Origin: Brevibacterium oceani
Lineage (GTDB): Bacteria > Actinomycetota > Actinomycetes > Actinomycetales > Brevibacteriaceae
Direction: 5' to 3'
NCBI RefSeq assembly: GCF_013623835.1
Contig: NZ_JABKDE010000004.1
Location: forward strand, 124,001 to 188,000
DNA length: 64,000 bases
In this document: piece after piece, positions 23,477 through 33,487 of the stretch
Numbering within the stretch: position 1 is the first letter of the stretch
Layout: every line of letters starts with the position of its first letter
Program-made: the position numbers and the translations under genes
The notes under the pieces: generated by a model
What the model was told of the DNA's origin: nothing
What the model saw: the letters and a program-made list of their open reading frames with translations, nothing else
Database searches by the model: none

Positions 23477-25417
23477 TCACTGCACCGGGGCAAAGACCCC
23501 CGCGAAGAACTCACCGATCTCCTCATGGGCGTCGATGGGGAAGATTCCTGAGACGTACTGGTCGGGGCGGACCACGACGACGGCACCGTCGCGACTGATC
23601 TCGCGGATGTCGAAGATGTCCTCGTCTGGCAGCGTCGCATAGATCCTCTCGACGTATTCGAGGTCGAAGGCGCCCACATGCGGACGGAAGACCTGCGGCA
23701 CATCGGGGAACGCGAACTCCTTGTGCTCCTGCTGGTAGATCACACTGAGCTCGACCAGGGCATCGATGTCCTCACCCTCACGCCGGTAGGCGACCAGGGG
23801 AGAGGCCGGATCAGACTCCAGCCAGGAGGCCAATCCGTTCACCTTCGACCCGGCACTCACCGTCTGGGCGGCACTCACCCTCGGGGCGGCACGATCGGCG
23901 AAGACGTAGACGCGCCAGCGACCGTCGGCGCGGGCCTCGTGGCCGAGGTGGACGAAGTTCGCATCGCAGCTGCGCTTGACCCTCGCCGACTTGAACCGCT
24001 TGCCGATCGGGAAGCCGGCCGCCAGCTCCTGATGCCTCGTCGGCGTCGTGATCATCGACTCGGTGTACTCGGTCATGAATCCGGCCGGGAACTCTGCGGT
24101 CTTGACGTAGAACTCCTCGAGGTAGGTCTTGTCCGGCAGCTCTTCCTGCGGCGTCGCCATGAGCGTCGACCACTCCTTGTCGAAGTCGATGAGGTTCTTC
24201 GCCGCCACCTGACGCTCCGCCGAATAGGTCCGCAGCAGCTCCGTCGACGACCGACCCGAAATGACCTGCCCGAGCTTCCACGCGATGTTGAACCCGTCCT
24301 GCATCGATACGTTCATGCCCTGACCGGCCTTCGCCGAGTGCGTATGGCAGGCATCGCCGGTGATGAACACGCGCGGGCAGGGCGAGCCGGGATCCGACGC
24401 ATCGGAATCGTCGAAGGCATCCGTGAGACGGTGCCCGACCTCGTAGACGCTGTGCCACGCCACGTTCTTCACATCGATGCTGTACGGGGCGATGATCGCG
24501 TTCGCCCGATGGATGATCTCGTCGATGCTCGTTGACCGCACCTTGCGCGCATCGTCCTCCGGCACCTCGCCGAGGTCGACATACATGCGGAAGAGATGAC
24601 CGCCCTCGCGGGGGATGTGGAGGATGTTGCCGTGCTTCGACGAGATCGCGCACTTGGTGCGGATGTCGGGGAAGTCGGAGTTCGCGAGGACGTCCATCAC
24701 TCCCCATGCGTGATTGGCCTGGTCGCCGGTCATGGTCCGGCCGATTGCCGACCGCACCTTCGACCTGGCCCCATCGCAGCCGACGACGTAGCCGGCGCGG
24801 ATCGTCCGCTCTTGACCCGCGCGCTCGCCGGCGGTGTAGCGGACGGTGACGGAGACCGGATGTTCTTTCGCCGACGACGCGGCTTCCCCGTCGACGCCGG
24901 TGTCGACGCTGAGATCGACGAACTCGATGCCGTAGTCGGGTGTGATCCGACCCGGCGACTGAGCGGCGAACTGGGCGAAGTAGTCGAGCACGCGCGCCTG
25001 GTTGACGATGAGGTGCGGGAACTCGCTGATACCGTGCTCATCGTCCTTGGGGCGGCCGGTGCGGATGATGTGCTCGGGATTCTCCGGATCCGGGTTCCAG
25101 AACGACATCTCCGTGATGTGGTAGCCCTCGCGCATGATCTCCTCGGCGAATCCGAACGCCTGGAACGTCTCGACCGAGCGCGCCTGGATGCCGTCGGCCT
25201 GACCGATGACCAGACGCGAATCACGCTTCTCGATCATCCGAGCGTTGACGTCGGGGTACTGCGAGAGCTGCGCAGCCGCAATCATGCCCGCAGGTCCGCT
25301 GCCGACGATGAGGACATCGACCTCATCGGGCAGGTCCTCGCTGCGATCGACTCCGAAGCCTGCGGCCTGCTCGATCCGCGGGTCAGCAGAGACGTAGCCG
25401 TTCTGATGGAAATGCAT
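23477..25417 (-). CDS. FAD-dependent aromatic hydroxylase (3-hydroxybenzoate 4-monooxygenase / phenol hydroxylase type)
   Basis: A 646-residue flavoprotein monooxygenase of the PheA/MobA group. LIVGSGPAGMIAAAQLS (residues 36-52) binds the FAD ADP moiety. YVVGCDGARSKVRSAIG is the DG motif, and FITGDACHTHSAKAGQGMNV is the GD motif closing the flavin site. The last 180 residues are the thioredoxin-like dimerisation domain. The overall plan and length match 3-hydroxybenzoate 4-monooxygenase. Its upstream region shares a 14-base motif with the divergent promoter of the homoprotocatechuate genes, so the real substrate may be 3- or 4-hydroxyphenylacetate, giving homoprotocatechuate. ATG 25417 follows GGAGG. 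Confidence 0.85.
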   Translation of the reverse strand: MHFHQNGYVSADPRIEQAAGFGVDRSEDLPDEVDVLIVGSGPAGMIAAAQLSQYPDVNARMIEKRDSRLVIGQADGIQARSVETFQAFGFAEEIMREGYHITEMSFWNPDPENPEHIIRTGRPKDDEHGISEFPHLIVNQARVLDYFAQFAAQSPGRITPDYGIEFVDLSVDTGVDGEAASSAKEHPVSVTVRYTAGERAGQERTIRAGYVVGCDGARSKVRSAIGRTMTGDQANHAWGVMDVLANSDFPDIRTKCAISSKHGNILHIPREGGHLFRMYVDLGEVPEDDARKVRSTSIDEIIHRANAIIAPYSIDVKNVAWHSVYEVGHRLTDAFDDSDASDPGSPCPRVFITGDACHTHSAKAGQGMNVSMQDGFNIAWKLGQVISGRSSTELLRTYSAERQVAAKNLIDFDKEWSTLMATPQEELPDKTYLEEFYVKTAEFPAGFMTEYTESMITTPTRHQELAAGFPIGKRFKSARVKRSCDANFVHLGHEARADGRWRVYVFADRAAPRVSAAQTVSAGSKVNGLASWLESDPASPLVAYRREGEDIDALVELSVIYQQEHKEFAFPDVPQVFRPHVGAFDLEYVERIYATLPDEDIFDIREISRDGAVVVVRPDQYVSGIFPIDAHEEIGEFFAGVFAPVQ

Positions 25418-25464
25418 GTCAACCTCCGGTTCGTGACACGTCGTCGTGATACTTGAATGCTATC

Positions 25465-25480
25465 AGTTCATATACGATCT
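25465..25480. promoter_or_regulatory. Shared aromatic-cluster motif upstream of the hydroxylase
   Basis: TTCATATACGATCTG (25466-25480) contains the 14-base string TCATATACGATCTG that also occurs at 27003-27016 in the transporter/FAH-RraA divergent region. It lies about 50 bases upstream of the hydroxylase start. It is a probable operator for the GntR protein encoded at 28516. The left half of the palindrome is degenerate here. Confidence 0.55.
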
Positions 25481-25518
25481 GGTGTCGGCAGGGTGGTGCC
25501 GGTCACCGTCGTCGCTGG

Positions 25519-26910
25519 TCATCCGCGTGAGCTCTCCGCGGTGTCGGGAGCCTCTGTGGGCATCGACGTCGAGGACCGCCCGAATCCGATGATCGGGCTC
25601 ACGGACTGCTCGGCCTCGTGGTCGGGTCCCAGCGGGATCCCGGTGCGATCGCGGAGCATGAGCGTGGCGATGAGCGCGAGCAGGGCGACGACCCCCAGAT
25701 ACACCGCCACCGAGGTGGTCGTGCCCGTCGCGGAGACGAGGGCCTTCGCGATCGTCGGGGCGAAGGCCCCGCCGAGGATCGACCCGATCGCATAGGAGAC
25801 CGAGACCCCGGAGAAGCGGACGCTGGAGGGGAAGAGTTCGGCGTACATCGCCGGCTGCTGACCGTAGGTGAAGCCCAGGCCGACGGTGAGGATGACGAGG
25901 CCGAGCAGCAGCATCCGGATGCTGCCGGTGCTGACGAGCGGGAACAGCGAGGCGATGCCGACCAGCAGCAGGATCCAGCCGAGGATGTAGGTGCTCCGCC
26001 GCCCGATCCGGTCAGAGACCGCACCGGCGATGATCGTGAACACCAGCCAGGACACCGCCGAGGCGGCCACCGCCCACAGCACCGGACCGCGCTCGAGGCC
26101 GATGGGCCCCGCCGGGTCCGTGGCGAAGTTCTGGATGTATCCGCCCGTGGTCATGTACCCGGCGGCATTGTTGCCCATGAACACCAGGGAGGCGAGGATG
26201 ACGAGCAGCCAGTGGCTCTTGAACAGGCGGCCCAGGGGATTCGACACCCGCTCCTTGCGTTCGGCGATCTCGTGGAAGACCGGGGACTCCTCGACGCCGC
26301 GGCGGATCCAGTACCCGACGACCACGAGGACGACGGAGAGGTAGAAGGGCACCCTCCAGCCCCATTCGAGGAAGGCGTCACCCGGGGCGATCGACGTCAT
26401 CAGCGCGAGCACTCCGGAGGAGAGCAGCAGGCCGATCGAGACGCCGATCTGCGGGAAGGAGCCGCGGAGGCCGCGGGACTTCTCGTCCGCGTGCTCGACG
26501 GCCAGCAGCACCGCCCCGCCCCATTCGCCGCCGGCGGAGACGCCCTGGACGATGCGCAGGGCGATGAGCAGGATCGGGGCCAGTGCGCCTGCAGATTCAT
26601 AGGTCGGCAGGAAGCCGATGAGGGCCGTGGCCGCACCCATCGCGATGAGGGTGATGATGAGGACAACCCGCCGACCGAGCCTGTCGCCGTAGTGACCGGC
26701 GAGGAAGGCTCCCAGAGGGCGGAAGAGGAAGCTGATGCCGACCGTCGCGAAGGCGACCATAGTCGACATGGTCGAACCGAGCGGGCCGAAGAAGAGCTGA
26801 TTGAAGATCAGTCCCGAGGCCGCCGCATAGAGGAAGTAGTCGTACCACTCGATGCTCGTGCCGACGATCGTCGCGAACGCCACCCTCGTCTGGGTGTGCT
26901 GTGCTGTCAT
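25519..26910 (-). CDS. MHS-family MFS transporter (metabolite:H+ symporter)
   Basis: A 463-residue major facilitator with 12 predicted helices. TSIEWYDYFLYAAASGLIF in helix 1 and FRPLGAFLAGHYGDRLGRR between helices 2 and 3 are typical of the MHS (ShiA/ProP/KgtP-like) family. Other MHS marks are SAGGEWGGAVLLAVEHA and EESPVFHEI. It sits between the FAD hydroxylase and the homoprotocatechuate genes, so the natural inference is proton-coupled uptake of a hydroxyphenylacetate or a related acid. ATG 26910 has GAGGACACCGGAG upstream. It is transcribed away from the FAH-RraA gene, with which it shares a control region. Confidence 0.87.
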   Translation of the reverse strand: MTAQHTQTRVAFATIVGTSIEWYDYFLYAAASGLIFNQLFFGPLGSTMSTMVAFATVGISFLFRPLGAFLAGHYGDRLGRRVVLIITLIAMGAATALIGFLPTYESAGALAPILLIALRIVQGVSAGGEWGGAVLLAVEHADEKSRGLRGSFPQIGVSIGLLLSSGVLALMTSIAPGDAFLEWGWRVPFYLSVVLVVVGYWIRRGVEESPVFHEIAERKERVSNPLGRLFKSHWLLVILASLVFMGNNAAGYMTTGGYIQNFATDPAGPIGLERGPVLWAVAASAVSWLVFTIIAGAVSDRIGRRSTYILGWILLLVGIASLFPLVSTGSIRMLLLGLVILTVGLGFTYGQQPAMYAELFPSSVRFSGVSVSYAIGSILGGAFAPTIAKALVSATGTTTSVAVYLGVVALLALIATLMLRDRTGIPLGPDHEAEQSVSPIIGFGRSSTSMPTEAPDTAESSRG

Positions 26911-26940
26911 GACTCCGGTGTCCTCACGTGCGAATGCTGC

Positions 26941-26981
26941 ATCCGGGACAGCTGTTTCAGCGGTGAAGCTGTGTCCCGGAT
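26941..26981. repeat. Perfect 10-bp inverted repeat in the transporter leader
   Basis: ATCCGGGACA (26941-26950) and TGTCCCGGAT (26972-26981) are exact inverted repeats around a 21-base loop. They lie between the transporter start and the shared operator, inside the probable 5' leader of the transporter mRNA. It could be a leader hairpin or a regulator site. Nothing else indicates which. Confidence 0.5.
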
Positions 26982-26998
26982 TACTTGTCTGCTGGAAC

Positions 26999-27017
26999 CG
27001 TATCATATACGATCTGT
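26999..27017. promoter_or_regulatory. Palindromic operator in the divergent homoprotocatechuate control region
   Basis: CGTAT-CAT-ATACG (26999-27011) is a perfect palindrome with a three-base centre, followed by ATCTGTG. It contains TCATATACGATCTG, identical to the site in front of the FAD hydroxylase. Palindromes built on TATACG are common for GntR/FCD regulators. The site is 33 bases upstream of ATG 27050 and faces the transporter gene on the other side. Confidence 0.6.
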
Positions 27018-27049: not shown

Positions 27050-28519
27050 ATGTCGACTCCAGCCGGTGTTCCCGCCCGACCGGGCAAGATCATCGCCGTT
27101 CATGTGGCGTATGAGTCCCGGGCCGCGCAGCGCGGAAAGCGGCCCGCCCAGCCGTCCTACTTCCTCAAGGCCGCGAGCTCCGTGGCCGGATCAGGGGAGA
27201 CGATCGCCCGCCCGGCCGGCACCTCGCTGCTGGCCTTCGAAGGCGAGATCGCCGTCGTCATCGGCTCTGCCGCCCGCAGCGTCACCGAGACCGATGCCTG
27301 GTCCCATGTGGCCGGAGTGACCGCGGCCAACGACTTCGGCCTCTACGACATCAAGACCCCCGACAAGGGGTCGAACCTGCGCTCGAAGTCCCGTGACGGC
27401 TATACCCCGCTCGGTCCCGAACTCATCCCCGCCGCCGAGGCGGACCCTGAGTCCCTGCGCATCCGCACCTGGGTCAACGGCGAGATCGTCCAGGACGACG
27501 GAACGAGTGCCGCGCAGCTGATCTTCAACCTGCCGCGCATCGTCGCCGACCTCAGTCAGCACCTCACCCTCGAACCCGGAGACGTCATCCTCACCGGCAC
27601 CCCCGCCGGTTCCTCGGTCGTCGCCCCCGGGGACACTGTCGAGGTCGAGGTCACAGCTACCTCGGCGAACGGGGAAGTGCGCAGCTCCGGGCGACTGACC
27701 ACGACCGTGGTCGAAGGCCCCGGTGATTTCGACGAGTCACTCGGCAGCACGCCCGCCGTGGATGAGGCCCTGACCGTCGACGCCTGGGGATCGCGCGAGG
27801 CCGCCGGGCTGCCTGCCGAAGATGACGCCCTCAGCGCCGACCTCGTCGCCAAGCTCACCGACGCCCCGACCGCGGGCCTGTCGGCACAGCTGCGCTCTCG
27901 GGGACTGAACAACGTCGTCATCGAAGGGGTCGCCCCGCTGCAGCCGGGAACGAAGATCGTCGGCACCGCGAAGACACTGCGCTTCGTACCCAACCGCGAG
28001 GACCTGTTCAAGTCCCACGGCGGGGGATACAACGCGCAGAAGCAGGCCTTCGATTCGATCCGACCCGGCGAAGTCATCGTCATCGAGGCCAGGGGCGAAT
28101 CGGGCTCCGGCACACTCGGCGACATCCTCGCACTGCGCGCGAAGTCCCTCGGCGCCGCCGGAGTCATCACCGACGGAGGAGTCCGTGACTCCGCCGAGGT
28201 GGCCGGCATCCTGCCCGTGTTCGCGACCGCGAGGAACCCCGCCGTGCTCGGCCGCCGCCACGTGCCGTGGGAGTCCGACGTGGCCGTGGCCTGCGGAAAC
28301 GCCACAGTCCTGCCCGGCGACGTCATCGTCGCCGATGATGACGGAGCCATCGTCATCCCCCGTGACCTCGTCGAAGAAGTCCTCGACGCGGCACTGGCCA
28401 AGGAGACCGAGGACGGCTGGGTGGCCGAACAGGTCGCCGCCGGCAACCCGATCGAAGGACTCTTCCCGCCCAAGGGCGAATGGAAGACGAAGTTCGAAGA
28501 CTGGAAGGCCTCCCGGTGA
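27050..28519 (+). CDS. Fused fumarylacetoacetate hydrolase-family and RraA-family enzyme
   Basis: A 489-residue two-domain protein. Residues 1-225 are a FAH domain (FEGEIAVVIG, AANDFGLYDIK, LEPGDVILTGTPAGS), the fold of HpaG decarboxylase/isomerase and of acylpyruvate hydrolases. Residues 255-450 are RraA-like (GAAGVITDGGVRD, PGDVIVADDDGAIVIP), the fold of HMG/CHA aldolase and oxaloacetate decarboxylases. HpaG normally has two FAH domains that decarboxylate and isomerise 5-oxopent-3-ene-1,2,5-tricarboxylate; here the second is replaced by RraA. The simplest inference is that the pair does both steps. ATG 27050 is first in an operon with the GntR gene, whose GTG overlaps its stop. Confidence 0.8.
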   Translation: MSTPAGVPARPGKIIAVHVAYESRAAQRGKRPAQPSYFLKAASSVAGSGETIARPAGTSLLAFEGEIAVVIGSAARSVTETDAWSHVAGVTAANDFGLYDIKTPDKGSNLRSKSRDGYTPLGPELIPAAEADPESLRIRTWVNGEIVQDDGTSAAQLIFNLPRIVADLSQHLTLEPGDVILTGTPAGSSVVAPGDTVEVEVTATSANGEVRSSGRLTTTVVEGPGDFDESLGSTPAVDEALTVDAWGSREAAGLPAEDDALSADLVAKLTDAPTAGLSAQLRSRGLNNVVIEGVAPLQPGTKIVGTAKTLRFVPNREDLFKSHGGGYNAQKQAFDSIRPGEVIVIEARGESGSGTLGDILALRAKSLGAAGVITDGGVRDSAEVAGILPVFATARNPAVLGRRHVPWESDVAVACGNATVLPGDVIVADDDGAIVIPRDLVEEVLDAALAKETEDGWVAEQVAAGNPIEGLFPPKGEWKTKFEDWKASR

Positions 28520-29247
28520 AGACCGAATCAGCAGCCACTGCCGGGGCCGGTCCGCCGTCACTGAGCAAGGCCGAAACCGCCTACCGGTGGATCCGCGAAC
28601 GCGTCGCCGATCAGACCTACCAGCCCGGGCACAAGCTCGTGCTCGCGCAGATCGCCCTCGAACTCGACACCTCGGTCGTGCCGGTGCGGGAGGCCATCCG
28701 CCGGTTGGAAGCCGACGGTCTCGTGACCTTCGAGCGCAATGTCGGAGCCCGCGTGGCCATGGTCGACCAGGGGTCCTACACCCAGTCGATGGAAACGGTC
28801 GCGATCCTCGAAGCCGCGGCCGTCGCCCAAGCGCAGGGCCACCTCGGTGCCGGTGATCTCGATGCCGCGGAGCAGATCAACGATCGGATGCGCGCACTGC
28901 TCGACGATTTCGAACCGGCCGAATTCACCCGGCTCAACCACGAGTTCCACGAAACGCTCTACCGGCGCTGCCCGAACGAGCGGCTGTGCACCCTCGTCGA
29001 ACTCGAATGGGACCGACTCAACCACCTGCGGGATTCGACGTTCTCCTTCGTCCCCGAACGGGCACTGGAGTCGGTGGAGGAGCACTCTCGCATCGTCGCC
29101 CTCATCCGTGCCCGCGCCTCGGCGCAGGAGGTCGAACGGGCCGTGCGCGAGCACCGCTCGGCCACACTGCACAGCTTCCAGAACTCCCAGACGACCGCAG
29201 AATCAGCCACGGATCTGCACACTGACTCACGAAAGGACAGATCATGA
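28516..29247 (+). CDS. GntR/FCD regulator of the homoprotocatechuate operon
   Basis: A 243-residue GntR-family regulator. The winged helix covers about residues 15-85 (KAETAYRWIRERVADQTYQP, LDTSVVPVREAIRRLEADGL). The FCD effector domain follows, with the metal-binding-type residues in FTRLNHEFHETLYRRCPN and VEEHSRIVALIRARA. The GTG start overlaps the stop of the FAH-RraA gene and has GGAAGG seven bases upstream. Its own stop overlaps the ATG of hpaE. It is therefore co-expressed with the pathway it probably represses. The palindromes at 26999 and 25466 are its likely binding sites, and the effector is probably a pathway intermediate. Confidence 0.88.
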   Translation: MKTESAATAGAGPPSLSKAETAYRWIRERVADQTYQPGHKLVLAQIALELDTSVVPVREAIRRLEADGLVTFERNVGARVAMVDQGSYTQSMETVAILEAAAVAQAQGHLGAGDLDAAEQINDRMRALLDDFEPAEFTRLNHEFHETLYRRCPNERLCTLVELEWDRLNHLRDSTFSFVPERALESVEEHSRIVALIRARASAQEVERAVREHRSATLHSFQNSQTTAESATDLHTDSRKDRS

Positions 29248-30746
29248 CAGAGTCCATCACACCCCCGGCCGGACTGCCGGAGAAGATCCGCCACTACATC
29301 GGCGGGCAGTTCGTCGACTCGATCGACGGGGAGGAGTTCGACGTCCTCAACCCCGTGACGAACGAGCCCTACATCACCGCCGCCTCGGGGAAGAAAGCCG
29401 ATATCGAAGCGGCTGTGACCGCGGCGAAGACGGCCTTCGACGAGGGCCCCTGGCCGACGATGCTGCCGCGCGAGCGCGCCCGGATCCTCTACCGCATCGC
29501 CGACATCGTCGAATCCCGCAAGGACGAACTCGCCGCGATGGAATCCTTCGACTCGGGTCTGCCGATCACCCAGGCCAAGGGCCAGGCGTCCCGTGCCGCG
29601 GAGAACTTCCGCTTCTTCGCCGACCTCATCGTCGCCCAGGTCGACGATGCCTTCAAGGTTCCGGGCCGCCAGGCGAACTACGTCAACCGCAAGCCCATCG
29701 GTGTAGCCGGACTCATCACCCCATGGAACACCCCGTTCATGCTCGAGTCGTGGAAGCTGGGACCGGCGATCGCGACCGGCAACACCGTCGTGCTCAAACC
29801 CGCCGAGTTCACCCCGCTCTCGGCCTCCCTGTGGCCGGGCATCTTCGAAGAGGCGGGACTGCCGAAGGGCGTGTTCAACATGGTCAACGGCTTCGGTGAG
29901 GAGGGCTTCGCCGGCGACTCGCTCGTCAAGCACCCGGACGTTCCGCTCATCTCCTTCACCGGCGAATCGAGCACGGGACAGACGATCTTCGCCAACGCCG
30001 CACCCTGGCTCAAGGGCCTGTCGATGGAGCTCGGCGGCAAGTCCCCGGCCGTCGTCTTCGCCGACGCGGACCTCGAAGCCGCCGTCAACGCCACGATCTT
30101 CGGCGTCTTCTCCCTCAACGGGGAACGCTGCACCGCCGGTTCGCGCATCCTCGTCGAGGACTCGGTCTACGACGAGTTCGTCGAACGCTACGCCGCCCAG
30201 GCCAAGCGCGTGAAGGTCGGTCTGCCCTCGGATCCCGACACCGAGGTGGCCGCCCTCGTCCACCCCGAACACTTCGAGAAGGTCATGTCCTACGTCGAGA
30301 TCGGCAAGACCGAGGCCCGCCTCGTCGCCGGCGGCGGACGTCCCGAGGGATTCGAGACCGGTAACTTCGTCCAGCCCACCGTCTTCGCCGACGTCGCCCC
30401 TGAGGCCCGGATCTTCCAGGAGGAGATCTTCGGTCCCGTCGTCGCGATCACCCCGTTCTCCTCCGACGAGGAGGCCCTGGAGCTGGCGAACAACACGAAG
30501 TACGGTCTCGCCGCCTACATCTGGACCTCGGATCTCAAGCGGGCGCATAACTTCTCGCAGGCCGTCGAGTCGGGCATGGTGTGGCTGAACTCGAACAACG
30601 TCCGCGACCTGCGCACCCCCTTCGGCGGGGTCAAGGCCTCGGGCCTCGGCCACGAGGGCGGGTACCGGTCGATCGACTTCTACACGGAACAGCAGTCCGT
30701 GCACATCAACCTCGGCGAGGTCCACAACCCGGTCTTCGGGAAGTAA
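29244..30746 (+). CDS. hpaE: 5-carboxymethyl-2-hydroxymuconate semialdehyde dehydrogenase
   Basis: A 500-residue aldehyde dehydrogenase that oxidises the ring-cleavage product of homoprotocatechuate with NAD. TPWNTPFMLESWKLGPAIAT, SFTGESSTGQTI, MELGGKSPAVVF (catalytic Glu) and SLNGERCTAGSRI (nucleophile Cys296) are present, together with the HpaE-type end NVRDLRTPFGGVKASGLG. The ATG overlaps the GntR stop (ATGA), and GAAAGGA is the ribosome-binding site. The dioxygenase that makes its substrate follows 11 bases downstream, which secures the assignment. Confidence 0.92.
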   Translation: MTESITPPAGLPEKIRHYIGGQFVDSIDGEEFDVLNPVTNEPYITAASGKKADIEAAVTAAKTAFDEGPWPTMLPRERARILYRIADIVESRKDELAAMESFDSGLPITQAKGQASRAAENFRFFADLIVAQVDDAFKVPGRQANYVNRKPIGVAGLITPWNTPFMLESWKLGPAIATGNTVVLKPAEFTPLSASLWPGIFEEAGLPKGVFNMVNGFGEEGFAGDSLVKHPDVPLISFTGESSTGQTIFANAAPWLKGLSMELGGKSPAVVFADADLEAAVNATIFGVFSLNGERCTAGSRILVEDSVYDEFVERYAAQAKRVKVGLPSDPDTEVAALVHPEHFEKVMSYVEIGKTEARLVAGGGRPEGFETGNFVQPTVFADVAPEARIFQEEIFGPVVAITPFSSDEEALELANNTKYGLAAYIWTSDLKRAHNFSQAVESGMVWLNSNNVRDLRTPFGGVKASGLGHEGGYRSIDFYTEQQSVHINLGEVHNPVFGK

Positions 30747-30757
30747 GGGAGGCGGAG

Positions 30758-31894
30758 ATGACCAATCGCGAAGATATGACACTGACCTCGGCCGGCTACT
30801 TCGTCAGCCAGGAGGCGCCGATCGTCACGGACAATCCCATCGCCACACCTCAGGCGAGTCCGCCCGATATCCTCCGCTGCGCCTATATGGAACTCGTCGT
30901 CACCGACCTCGCCGCCTCGCGGGAGTTCTATGTCGACGTGCTCGGACTCTATGTCACCGAGGAGGACGAGAACACGCTCTACCTGCGTTCGACGGAGGAG
31001 TTCATCCACCACAATCTCGTCCTGCGCAAGGGCGAGGTCGCAGCTGTGGCCGCGTTCTCCTACCGGGTCCGCAGCCCGGAAGAGCTCGACAAGGCCGTGG
31101 CCTTCTACACCGAACTCGGCTGCGATGTCCGCCGCAACCCGGACGGCTTCGTCAAGGGTGTGGGCGACTCCGTGCGGGTGGTCGATCCGCTCGGCTTCCC
31201 GTACGAGTTCTTCTACCGGTCCGACCACGTCGAGCGCATGTCGTGGCGCTATGACCTGCACATCCCCGGCGAACTCGTCCGCCTCGACCACTTCAACCAG
31301 GTCACCCCGGATGTGCCGCGGGCGGTGAAGTACATGCAGGACCTCGGCTTCCGCGTCACGGAGGACATCCAGGACGAGGAAGGCACGGTCTACGCTGCGT
31401 GGATGCGCCGCAAACCCTCCGTCCATGACACGGCGATGACCGGCGGCGACGGACCGCGCATGCACCATGTGTGCTTCGCCACCCACGAGAAGCACAACAT
31501 CCTCGCCATCTGCGACAAGCTCGGTGCGCTGCGCCGATCCGATTCGATCGAGCGCGGTCCCGGCCGCCACGGCGTCTCGAACGCGTTCTACCTCTACCTG
31601 CGTGACCCCGACGGTCACCGCGTCGAGGTGTACACGCAGGACTACTACACCGGCGACCCGGACAATCCGGTCGTCACCTGGGACGTCCACGACAATCAGC
31701 GCCGCGACTGGTGGGGCAACCCCGTCGTGCCGTCCTGGTACACGGATGCCTCCCTCGTCCTCGATCTCGACGGCAACCCACAGCCGGTGCATGCACGCAC
31801 GGACGATTCGGAGATGGCAGTGACGATCGGTGCAGACGGCTTCTCCTACACCCGCGCGGATGAGAACGAGGGCAAGCTGGGCAACCAGCTCTGA
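30758..31894 (+). CDS. hpaD: 3,4-dihydroxyphenylacetate (homoprotocatechuate) 2,3-dioxygenase, extradiol type I
   Basis: A 378-residue vicinal-oxygen-chelate dioxygenase that opens the ring of homoprotocatechuate next to the hydroxyls. From memory it is very close to the crystallised Brevibacterium fuscum enzyme, with a 23-residue longer N-terminus. The metal ligands are His178, His237 and Glu290, and the acid-base/second-shell residues are His223, His271 and Tyr280. These match His155, His214, Glu267, His200, His248 and Tyr257. The C-terminal segment DVHDNQRRDWWGNPVVPSWY is also shared. The family uses Fe(II) or Mn(II); the metal cannot be told from sequence. ATG 30758 follows GGGAGGCGGAG. 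Confidence 0.95.
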   Translation: MTNREDMTLTSAGYFVSQEAPIVTDNPIATPQASPPDILRCAYMELVVTDLAASREFYVDVLGLYVTEEDENTLYLRSTEEFIHHNLVLRKGEVAAVAAFSYRVRSPEELDKAVAFYTELGCDVRRNPDGFVKGVGDSVRVVDPLGFPYEFFYRSDHVERMSWRYDLHIPGELVRLDHFNQVTPDVPRAVKYMQDLGFRVTEDIQDEEGTVYAAWMRRKPSVHDTAMTGGDGPRMHHVCFATHEKHNILAICDKLGALRRSDSIERGPGRHGVSNAFYLYLRDPDGHRVEVYTQDYYTGDPDNPVVTWDVHDNQRRDWWGNPVVPSWYTDASLVLDLDGNPQPVHARTDDSEMAVTIGADGFSYTRADENEGKLGNQL

Positions 31895-31928: not shown

Positions 31929-32714
31929 ATGCTTGATGAAGCGACGATCGCCAGGATCGCCGACGACCTCGCCGAGGCGGAGCGGACCCGCACGAAGATC
32001 CCGCGGCTGACCTCGCAGTTCCCGGATATGACCGTCGAGGACTCCTATGCGGTGCAGAACGAATGGCGCCGTCGCGGTGAGGCTGCCGGCCGTCGGCTGT
32101 TCGGCCACAAGATCGGCCTGACCTCGAAGCCGATGCAGCAGGCCACGGGCATCACCGAACCCGACTACGGGGCGATCTTCGCCGACCAGGTCTACGACAC
32201 CGGGTCCGTGATCGATCATGCGCAGTATTCGGGCGTGCGCATCGAGGTCGAACTCGCCTTCGTGCTGCGCGAGGAGCTGGCCGGACCTGATGTCAGCCTC
32301 TTCGACGTCCTCCGCGCCACCGAATACGTCGTCCCGGCACTCGAGGTGCTGTCCTCGCGCATCGAGATGGAGGGCCGCACGATCGTCGACACCATCTCCG
32401 ACAACGCGGCGCTGGGTGCGATGGTCCTCGGCGGTCGTCCGATCACCGTCGACGCCGTGGACCTGCGCCGGGTGAACGCGCTGCTCTACCGCAACGAGAC
32501 GATCGAGGACTCGGGAGTCGCGGCCGCCGTACTCGACCATCCGGCCCGCGGCATCGTGTGGTTGGCGAACAAACTCGCCGAACACGGTGATGTGCTCCGT
32601 GCCGGAGAGACCGTGCTCGCCGGGTCGTTCACCCGCCCCATGTGGGTCCATCCGGGTGACACCGTCCACGCCGACTACGGAGAGCTGGGAGCCATCACAT
32701 GCCGTTTCGCCTAG
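31929..32714 (+). CDS. hpaH: 2-oxohept-4-ene-1,7-dioate hydratase
   Basis: A 261-residue hydratase of the FAH-related HpaH/MhpD family that adds water to 2-oxohept-4-enedioate in homoprotocatechuate breakdown. Typical segments are [20 protein letters not shown] near residue 58, [15 protein letters not shown] with metal-binding Glu residues, and [11 protein letters not shown]. The C-terminal [14 protein letters not shown] is also typical. It starts 34 bases after hpaD behind GAAAGGA, and its last 16 bases overlap the aldolase gene, so translation is coupled to the next pathway step. Confidence 0.92.
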
Positions 32715-33487
32715 AACTTCCGCAGACCTTCGCCGACCGGGTGGCCGGCCTCGGCGAGGGAGAGTACCTGGCCGGGATGTGGGTGTGCTCGGGTTCGCCC
32801 GTGGCCGCCGAGATCGCCGCGGCCTCCGGGATGCAGTGGGTGCTCATCGACGCCGAGCATTCCCCGATCGGTCTCGAGACGACGACGAGTCTGCTGCGCG
32901 CGATGAATGGCTATCCGGCCACTCCCGTGGTGCGGGTGCCGGTGAACGATCGGGTGCTCATCAAGCAGTTCCTCGACCTCGGTGCGCAGAATCTGCTCGT
33001 GCCGATGGTCGACACGAAGACCGACGCCGAGGCGGCCGTGGCCGCCGTCCGCTACCCGCCGAAAGGTGTGCGCGGAGTCGGATCGGCCCTGGCCAGGGCC
33101 TCCCGGTGGAATGCCGTGGACGGGTATCTCGGCCGAGCCGAGGAACTCGTTTCGCTGACCGTGCAGATCGAATCGGCGACCGCGGTCGCCAACGCCGCCG
33201 AGATAGCCGCGGTCGACGGCATCGACGGCGTCTTCGTCGGACCTTCGGACCTCGCCGCCTCGATGGGCCTGCTCGGCCAGCAGACGCATCCGGACGTCAC
33301 CGCAGCGGTGACTCGGACGTTCGAGGCGGTGCGCGCGGCCGGCAAACCGGTCGGCGTCAATGCCTTCGACCCCGAGCAGGCTCGTAAGTACTTGGAGGCC
33401 GGTGCCTCGTTCGTCCTCGTCGGAGCCGACGTCGGCCTGATGATGAACGGTGCCCGTGCCTGGGCGAAGGAATGGGTGCAGGACTGA
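32699..33487 (+). CDS. hpaI: 4-hydroxy-2-oxoheptanedioate aldolase
   Basis: A 262-residue class II aldolase of the HpcH/HpaI family that splits 4-hydroxy-2-oxoheptanedioate into pyruvate and succinate semialdehyde. WVLIDAEHSPI carries the catalytic His and an acidic residue. VPMVDTKTDAEAAV, RGVGSALARASRW, QIESATAV (metal-binding Glu) and DGVFVGPSDLAASMG (metal-binding Asp) follow in the family order. The start overlaps hpaH by 16 bases. It is the last gene of the operon, followed by a strong terminator. Confidence 0.93.
   Translation: MPFRLELPQTFADRVAGLGEGEYLAGMWVCSGSPVAAEIAAASGMQWVLIDAEHSPIGLETTTSLLRAMNGYPATPVVRVPVNDRVLIKQFLDLGAQNLLVPMVDTKTDAEAAVAAVRYPPKGVRGVGSALARASRWNAVDGYLGRAEELVSLTVQIESATAVANAAEIAAVDGIDGVFVGPSDLAASMGLLGQQTHPDVTAAVTRTFEAVRAAGKPVGVNAFDPEQARKYLEAGASFVLVGADVGLMMNGARAWAKEWVQD

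Follow-up and report, generated by a model that had tools for sequence, protein, structure and literature searches.

The subject of this analysis is a flavin adenine dinucleotide (FAD)-dependent hydroxylase and a neighbouring homoprotocatechuate (HPC) degradation operon of Brevibacterium oceani, together with two short palindromic sites upstream of them, all within a 64,000-nucleotide stretch of the genome (contig NZ_JABKDE010000004.1, positions 124,001 to 188,000; here called the window, whose numbering is used throughout). The hydroxylase gene lies on the minus strand (23477-25417; NF006144, 992 bits) and encodes a single-component class A enzyme with the MobA/phenol-hydroxylase fold, proposed here to be a hydroxyphenylacetate hydroxylase. 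On the same strand lies a gene for a major facilitator superfamily (MFS) transporter of the metabolite/H+ symporter family (25519-26910; TIGR00883, 381 bits), which is shikimate-transporter-like and probably serves aromatic-acid uptake. The operon occupies the plus strand and, according to profile searches, specifies in order a FAH-RraA fusion with an HpaG-type isomerase/decarboxylase role (27050-28519; NF009399, 766 bits, above cut-off; PF01557 and PF03737), a GntR regulator with an FCD domain that is the candidate binder of both sites (28480-29247; PF00392 and PF07729), HpaE (29244-30746; TIGR02299, 640 bits, above cut-off), the homoprotocatechuate 2,3-dioxygenase HpaD (30758-31894; TIGR02295, 426 bits, above cut-off), the 2-oxo-hept-4-ene-1,7-dioate hydratase HpaH (31929-32714; TIGR02312, 348 bits, just below the cut-off of 351.5) and the 4-hydroxy-2-oxoheptanedioate aldolase HpaI (32699-33487; TIGR02311, 298 bits, below the cut-off of 368.8; PF03328). 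HpaH and HpaI score below cut-off, yet TIGR02312 and TIGR02311 are the best family for each, and the top Protein Data Bank (PDB) matches of HpaD are homoprotocatechuate 2,3-dioxygenase entries (E 9e-184). HpaD, HpaE, HpaH and HpaI, the gene set of an HPC meta-cleavage operon, are thus present together. The FAH-RraA gene stands where HpaG would be expected, and a distinct gene for an HpaF isomerase was not seen among the operon genes. Neither a match to the HpaB oxygenase (PF03241) nor a second close relative of the hydroxylase was found in the B. oceani genome.

The two sites were first noticed in a sequence-only reading of the window as twin copies of the 14-mer TCATATACGATCTG, and both copies exist: one at 27003-27016, as originally placed, and one at 25468-25481, a single base away from the 25467-25480 first given. 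They are the sole exact copies in the 4,481,272-base genome, which holds no other match with fewer than two mismatches, and approximately 5e-4 pairs of identical 14-mers would be expected by chance between the intergenic regions concerned. The same reading had described the downstream copy as half of the palindrome CGTATCATATACG (26999-27011). This palindrome is real but imperfect, and we rejected it as the operator unit because a differently centred 12-mer recurs elsewhere instead: the operator is the TATA-centred palindrome ATCRTATAYGAT/A, located at 25467-25478 and 27002-27013, of which genome G032 carries the perfect form ATCGTATACGAT. The upstream site, ATCGTATATGAA on the hydroxylase strand, spans -61 to -50 from the hydroxylase ATG, while the other, ATCATATACGAT, lies in the divergent MFS/FAH-RraA promoter at -48 from the FAH-RraA ATG and about 90 bases before the MFS gene; each includes most of its 14-mer. 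A degenerate version of the palindrome, ATCRTATAYGAW, has zero-mismatch matches in the whole genome at these two sites only. A wider regulon was considered and rejected, as the genome contains no third perfect site.

Several comparisons indicate that the operator is conserved. Among genomes of the same genus with a hydroxylase ortholog (at least 78%) in a complete HPC cluster, every cluster has a site at -61 or -63 from the hydroxylase and one at -48 from FAH-RraA. The MFS gene sits between the hydroxylase and the operon in most of these clusters; in G005, G008 and G010 it is absent, so that hydroxylase and FAH-RraA are directly divergent, and both sites are kept. Outside the genus, we identified the palindrome, allowing one mismatch, in 64 of 72 FAH-RraA upstream regions, compared with a median of 0 for 179 composition-matched control palindromes, the few high scorers among which are close variants of the motif. 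Separate hydroxylase promoters with the site were found in G116, G124, G143, G157 and G175. The co-regulation proposed by the sequence-only reading is therefore supported: within the genus the operator keeps a constant distance upstream of each of the two genes, and elsewhere it is deeply conserved before the operon.

The operon does encode its own GntR protein, as had been noted at the outset, and the locus shows the features of a local GntR-FCD regulon, namely a regulator with GntR and FCD domains and a conserved palindrome in its target promoters. Operators of the FCD (FadR-type) GntR family follow the pattern TNGT..ACNA. The regulator described here resembles members of that family in its GntR helix-turn-helix and FCD domains, and its presumptive short palindromic operator, TCGTATACGA, resembles their pattern. 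The operon-encoded FCD-GntR protein is the likely binder of the palindrome. It would bind ATCGTATACGAT (in B. oceani ATCRTATAYGAT/A) both before the hydroxylase and in the divergent transporter/FAH-RraA promoter, and would most likely keep the three transcription units repressed as long as no pathway compound is present. Clusters G167 and G207 have neither a GntR gene nor a site, which gives a weak hint regarding GntR binding; among loci in which no GntR gene was detected, some of them cut by an end, three of six have the site. A characterised FCD-GntR ortholog for HPC genes was not found in the literature searched.

We regard it as highly improbable that the string common to both sites is part of a promoter, or a repeat arisen by chance, and not the operator of a repressor. 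By eye, TACGAT within the FAH-RraA site could serve as a -10 element, lying 17 nt after TTGTCT and overlapped by the operator at 27002-27013, but a scan of both upstream regions for sigma-70-type promoters found no match. Moreover, the string is palindromic and oppositely oriented relative to the hydroxylase and to FAH-RraA, has only two copies in the genome, and is conserved specifically in comparison with control palindromes. We hold with considerable confidence that the best explanation of the data combines the two sites as operators of one small regulon with a role for the hydroxylase in 4-hydroxyphenylacetate (4-HPA) hydroxylation.

With regard to the enzyme itself, PF01494 (FAD_binding_3) and PF07976 (the phenol-hydroxylase C-terminal dimerisation domain) cover the full length of the hydroxylase, as does the match to MobA, the 3-hydroxybenzoate 4-monooxygenase of PDB entry 2dkh (residues 1-639, 609 bits). 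Both its domains and its substrate contacts are those of class A single-component FAD aromatic hydroxylases of the MobA/phenol hydroxylase group. In MobA, Asp75, His135, Lys247 and Tyr271 contact the phenol and carboxylate of the substrate (PMC3546652); the equivalent residues D75, H135, K255 and Y279 are invariant across 138 orthologs of the B. oceani enzyme. A phenol acid is therefore expected as substrate, and plain phenol is not. At position 267 the enzyme has His where MobA has Ile259; this residue was tried as a substrate marker and discarded, being Leu in half of the orthologs. The hydroxylase thus shares with MobA (2dkh/2dki) full-length homology, domain order and substrate contacts, but falls into a different group, set on a long branch: the tree, made by a short search, gathers HPC-linked and unlinked orthologs into a single supported group (SH-aLRT 100) and keeps MobA and six non-HPC paralogs outside it. 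The same tree puts two long-branched non-HPC sequences (L066 and L207) inside the HPC group, a placement that it flags as unsure. A second group of MobA-like paralogs occurs in the genus (L068-L074; 47-52% identity) and has no HPC linkage.

The distribution of the hydroxylase follows the HPC pathway. In a phylogenetic profile of 198 genomes of the order, with HpaD counted where clear, the hydroxylase was present in all 47 genomes with HpaD and in only three others (Fisher p 2e-42). This co-occurrence holds also where the two genes are far apart and therefore reflects more than linkage. HpaB, in comparison, was found in four of the 47 HpaD genomes and was absent from 43. Across many families, and in a second phylum, the hydroxylase gene also lies within or beside the HPC cluster; in G038, Nesterenkonia, Saccharopolyspora and Prauserella it shares the strand of the operon. 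A Halomonas genome that lacks HpaB has the same hydroxylase next to HpaA, HpaH, HpaG, HpaD, HpaE and HpaF. The Halomonadaceae arrangement, in which the hydroxylase is transcribed divergently from an HpaA-containing hpa operon of proteobacterial type and the genome has no HpaB (L280, 4877-11878; also L275 and L295), possibly reflects transfer between phyla.

These patterns bear on whether the protein could be what its annotation says, a genuine 3-hydroxybenzoate 4-monooxygenase or phenol 2-monooxygenase that lies close to the operon by coincidence or for the sake of shared uptake. NF006144 is named 'phenol 2-monooxygenase' and MobA is the closest solved relative, but the profile tracks HpaD rather than protocatechuate dioxygenase: PcaH, the marker used for protocatechuate degradation, is missing from 22 of the 50 hydroxylase carriers and is found in 16 genomes without the hydroxylase, so that no tie to that pathway emerged, whereas the tie to HpaD is complete. 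Further, the carboxylate anchors speak against phenol, the tree separates the group from MobA, and the hydroxylase shares an operator with the operon and is linked to it across families. We consider the annotated activities extremely improbable. The proposal of the sequence-only reading that a MobA-like hydroxylase makes homoprotocatechuate from a hydroxyphenylacetate is, by contrast, strongly supported by gene distribution, namely by the HpaD co-occurrence, the cluster linkage and the rarity of HpaB.

We next consider the substrate. A thiamine diphosphate (ThDP)-dependent enzyme is encoded in 24 of the fetched loci, often adjacent to the hydroxylase gene and often within about 2-3 kb of it; families and solved structures gave no exact activity for this enzyme. 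Succinate-semialdehyde dehydrogenase adjoins in several loci. The presence of the ThDP enzyme nearby favours tyrosine-derived 4-HPA over 3-hydroxyphenylacetate, and genomic context thus makes 4-HPA the likelier main substrate. Both neighbouring enzymes fit a predicted route that would lead from tyrosine via 4-hydroxyphenylpyruvate and 4-hydroxyphenylacetaldehyde to 4-HPA, and from there via homoprotocatechuate to pyruvate and succinate semialdehyde. 4-HPA and tyrosine support growth of Arthrobacter Rue61a, 3-hydroxybenzoate does not, and the strain fails to convert phenol into catechol by hydroxylation (PMC3534580). A mainly 3-hydroxyphenylacetate-directed enzyme, performing the 4-hydroxylation exactly analogous to that of MobA and still yielding homoprotocatechuate, would agree with the identical pocket contacts, but is unlikely given the adjacent ThDP enzyme, the growth of actinobacteria with the HPC pathway on 4-HPA and tyrosine, and the lack of any other HpaB-type 4-HPA hydroxylase in most carriers. 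Routes through tyramine, 4-hydroxyphenylpyruvate or hydroxymandelate could likewise feed HpaD. Action of the hydroxylase on such a related precursor, later turned to homoprotocatechuate, is very improbable: no tool result favours it, the carboxylate anchors disfavour tyramine, and no amine-oxidase partner is among the annotated recurrent neighbours.

Taken together, the hydroxylase is very probably the enzyme so far missing from the start of the HPC pathway, through which tyrosine-derived 4-HPA enters it. As a single-component class A FAD monooxygenase it would ortho-hydroxylate 4-HPA, and possibly 3-hydroxyphenylacetate too, to homoprotocatechuate, which would then be cleaved by HpaD and degraded by HpaE, FAH-RraA, HpaH and HpaI. 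It would stand in for HpaBC, the two-component 4-hydroxyphenylacetate 3-monooxygenase, at the same pathway step and with the same predicted reaction, but is unrelated to it; HpaB is missing here and in most carriers. Likewise, the operon shares HpaD, HpaE, HpaH and HpaI with the usual HPC operon, but has the FAH-RraA fusion at the HpaG position, FCD-GntR in place of HpaR/HpaA, and the class A hydroxylase in place of HpaBC. More generally, we think it probable that hydroxyphenylacetate hydroxylation in the HPC pathway of actinobacteria and halophilic gammaproteobacteria is the task of this widespread, hitherto unassigned flavoprotein, which would be a non-orthologous replacement of HpaBC under control of a conserved FCD-GntR palindrome.

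Several observations weigh against this interpretation. Outside the genus, the site was found in only 32 of 112 hydroxylase promoters, partly in shared intergenic regions, and separate hydroxylase promoters without it occur in G056, G088, G118, G132, G173, G184 and G222, several of them unlinked; because many such promoters lack the site, joint control of hydroxylase and operon is not universal outside the genus. Three genomes (G002, G182 and G201) have the hydroxylase without a clear HpaD, the G201 locus being cut by a contig end yet retaining FAH-RraA and GntR. The pocket contacts are those of MobA, so that sequence does not separate 3-hydroxybenzoate from hydroxyphenylacetates. Finally, the link from Rue61a to the enzyme rests on Paenarthrobacter relatives (L252 and L262).

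A paper describing the hydroxylase was not found in the literature searched, which left out most subscription journals; in a 2024 review, 4-HPA 3-hydroxylase is presented as a two-component class (PMC10816480). What the present analysis adds is the correct operator and how deeply it is conserved, the evidence from the phylogenetic profile, the case of the Halomonadaceae and the reasoning in favour of 4-HPA. If true, our interpretation would fill a gap in Gram-positive tyrosine breakdown, as in Arthrobacter arilaitensis, which uses tyrosine and in which the gene for 4-HPA 3-monooxygenase could not be located (PMC2991359). It would also correct the name 'phenol 2-monooxygenase' or '3-hydroxybenzoate 4-monooxygenase' on a large group of proteins, and would provide both a 4-HPA ortho-hydroxylase independent of a separate reductase component and, for actinobacteria of soil and cheese surfaces, a repressor and operator ready for use.

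In other genera, about 20 loci have an IclR-type regulator next to the hydroxylase (for example L198, 10885-11670; L232, 11899-12615; L190, 2835-3551), which suggests a second mode of hydroxylase control; unlinked hydroxylases have little conserved surroundings save for an IclR regulator in some. B. oceani has an ortholog (61%) of the cluster-associated ThDP enzyme (G000:C20:5282-7087, L301), in a region that also encodes a second ThDP enzyme, a sodium:solute symporter, an arginase-family protein, a PucR regulator and an aminotransferase. The hydroxylase of G032 is split into two frames (L060, 9149-11085), and one TGA is reported in the matched hydroxylase stretch of G005 (L058, 8986-10896). 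In G006 (L049) the cluster occurs twice on one contig, inverted, with one FAH-RraA copy broken into two pieces.

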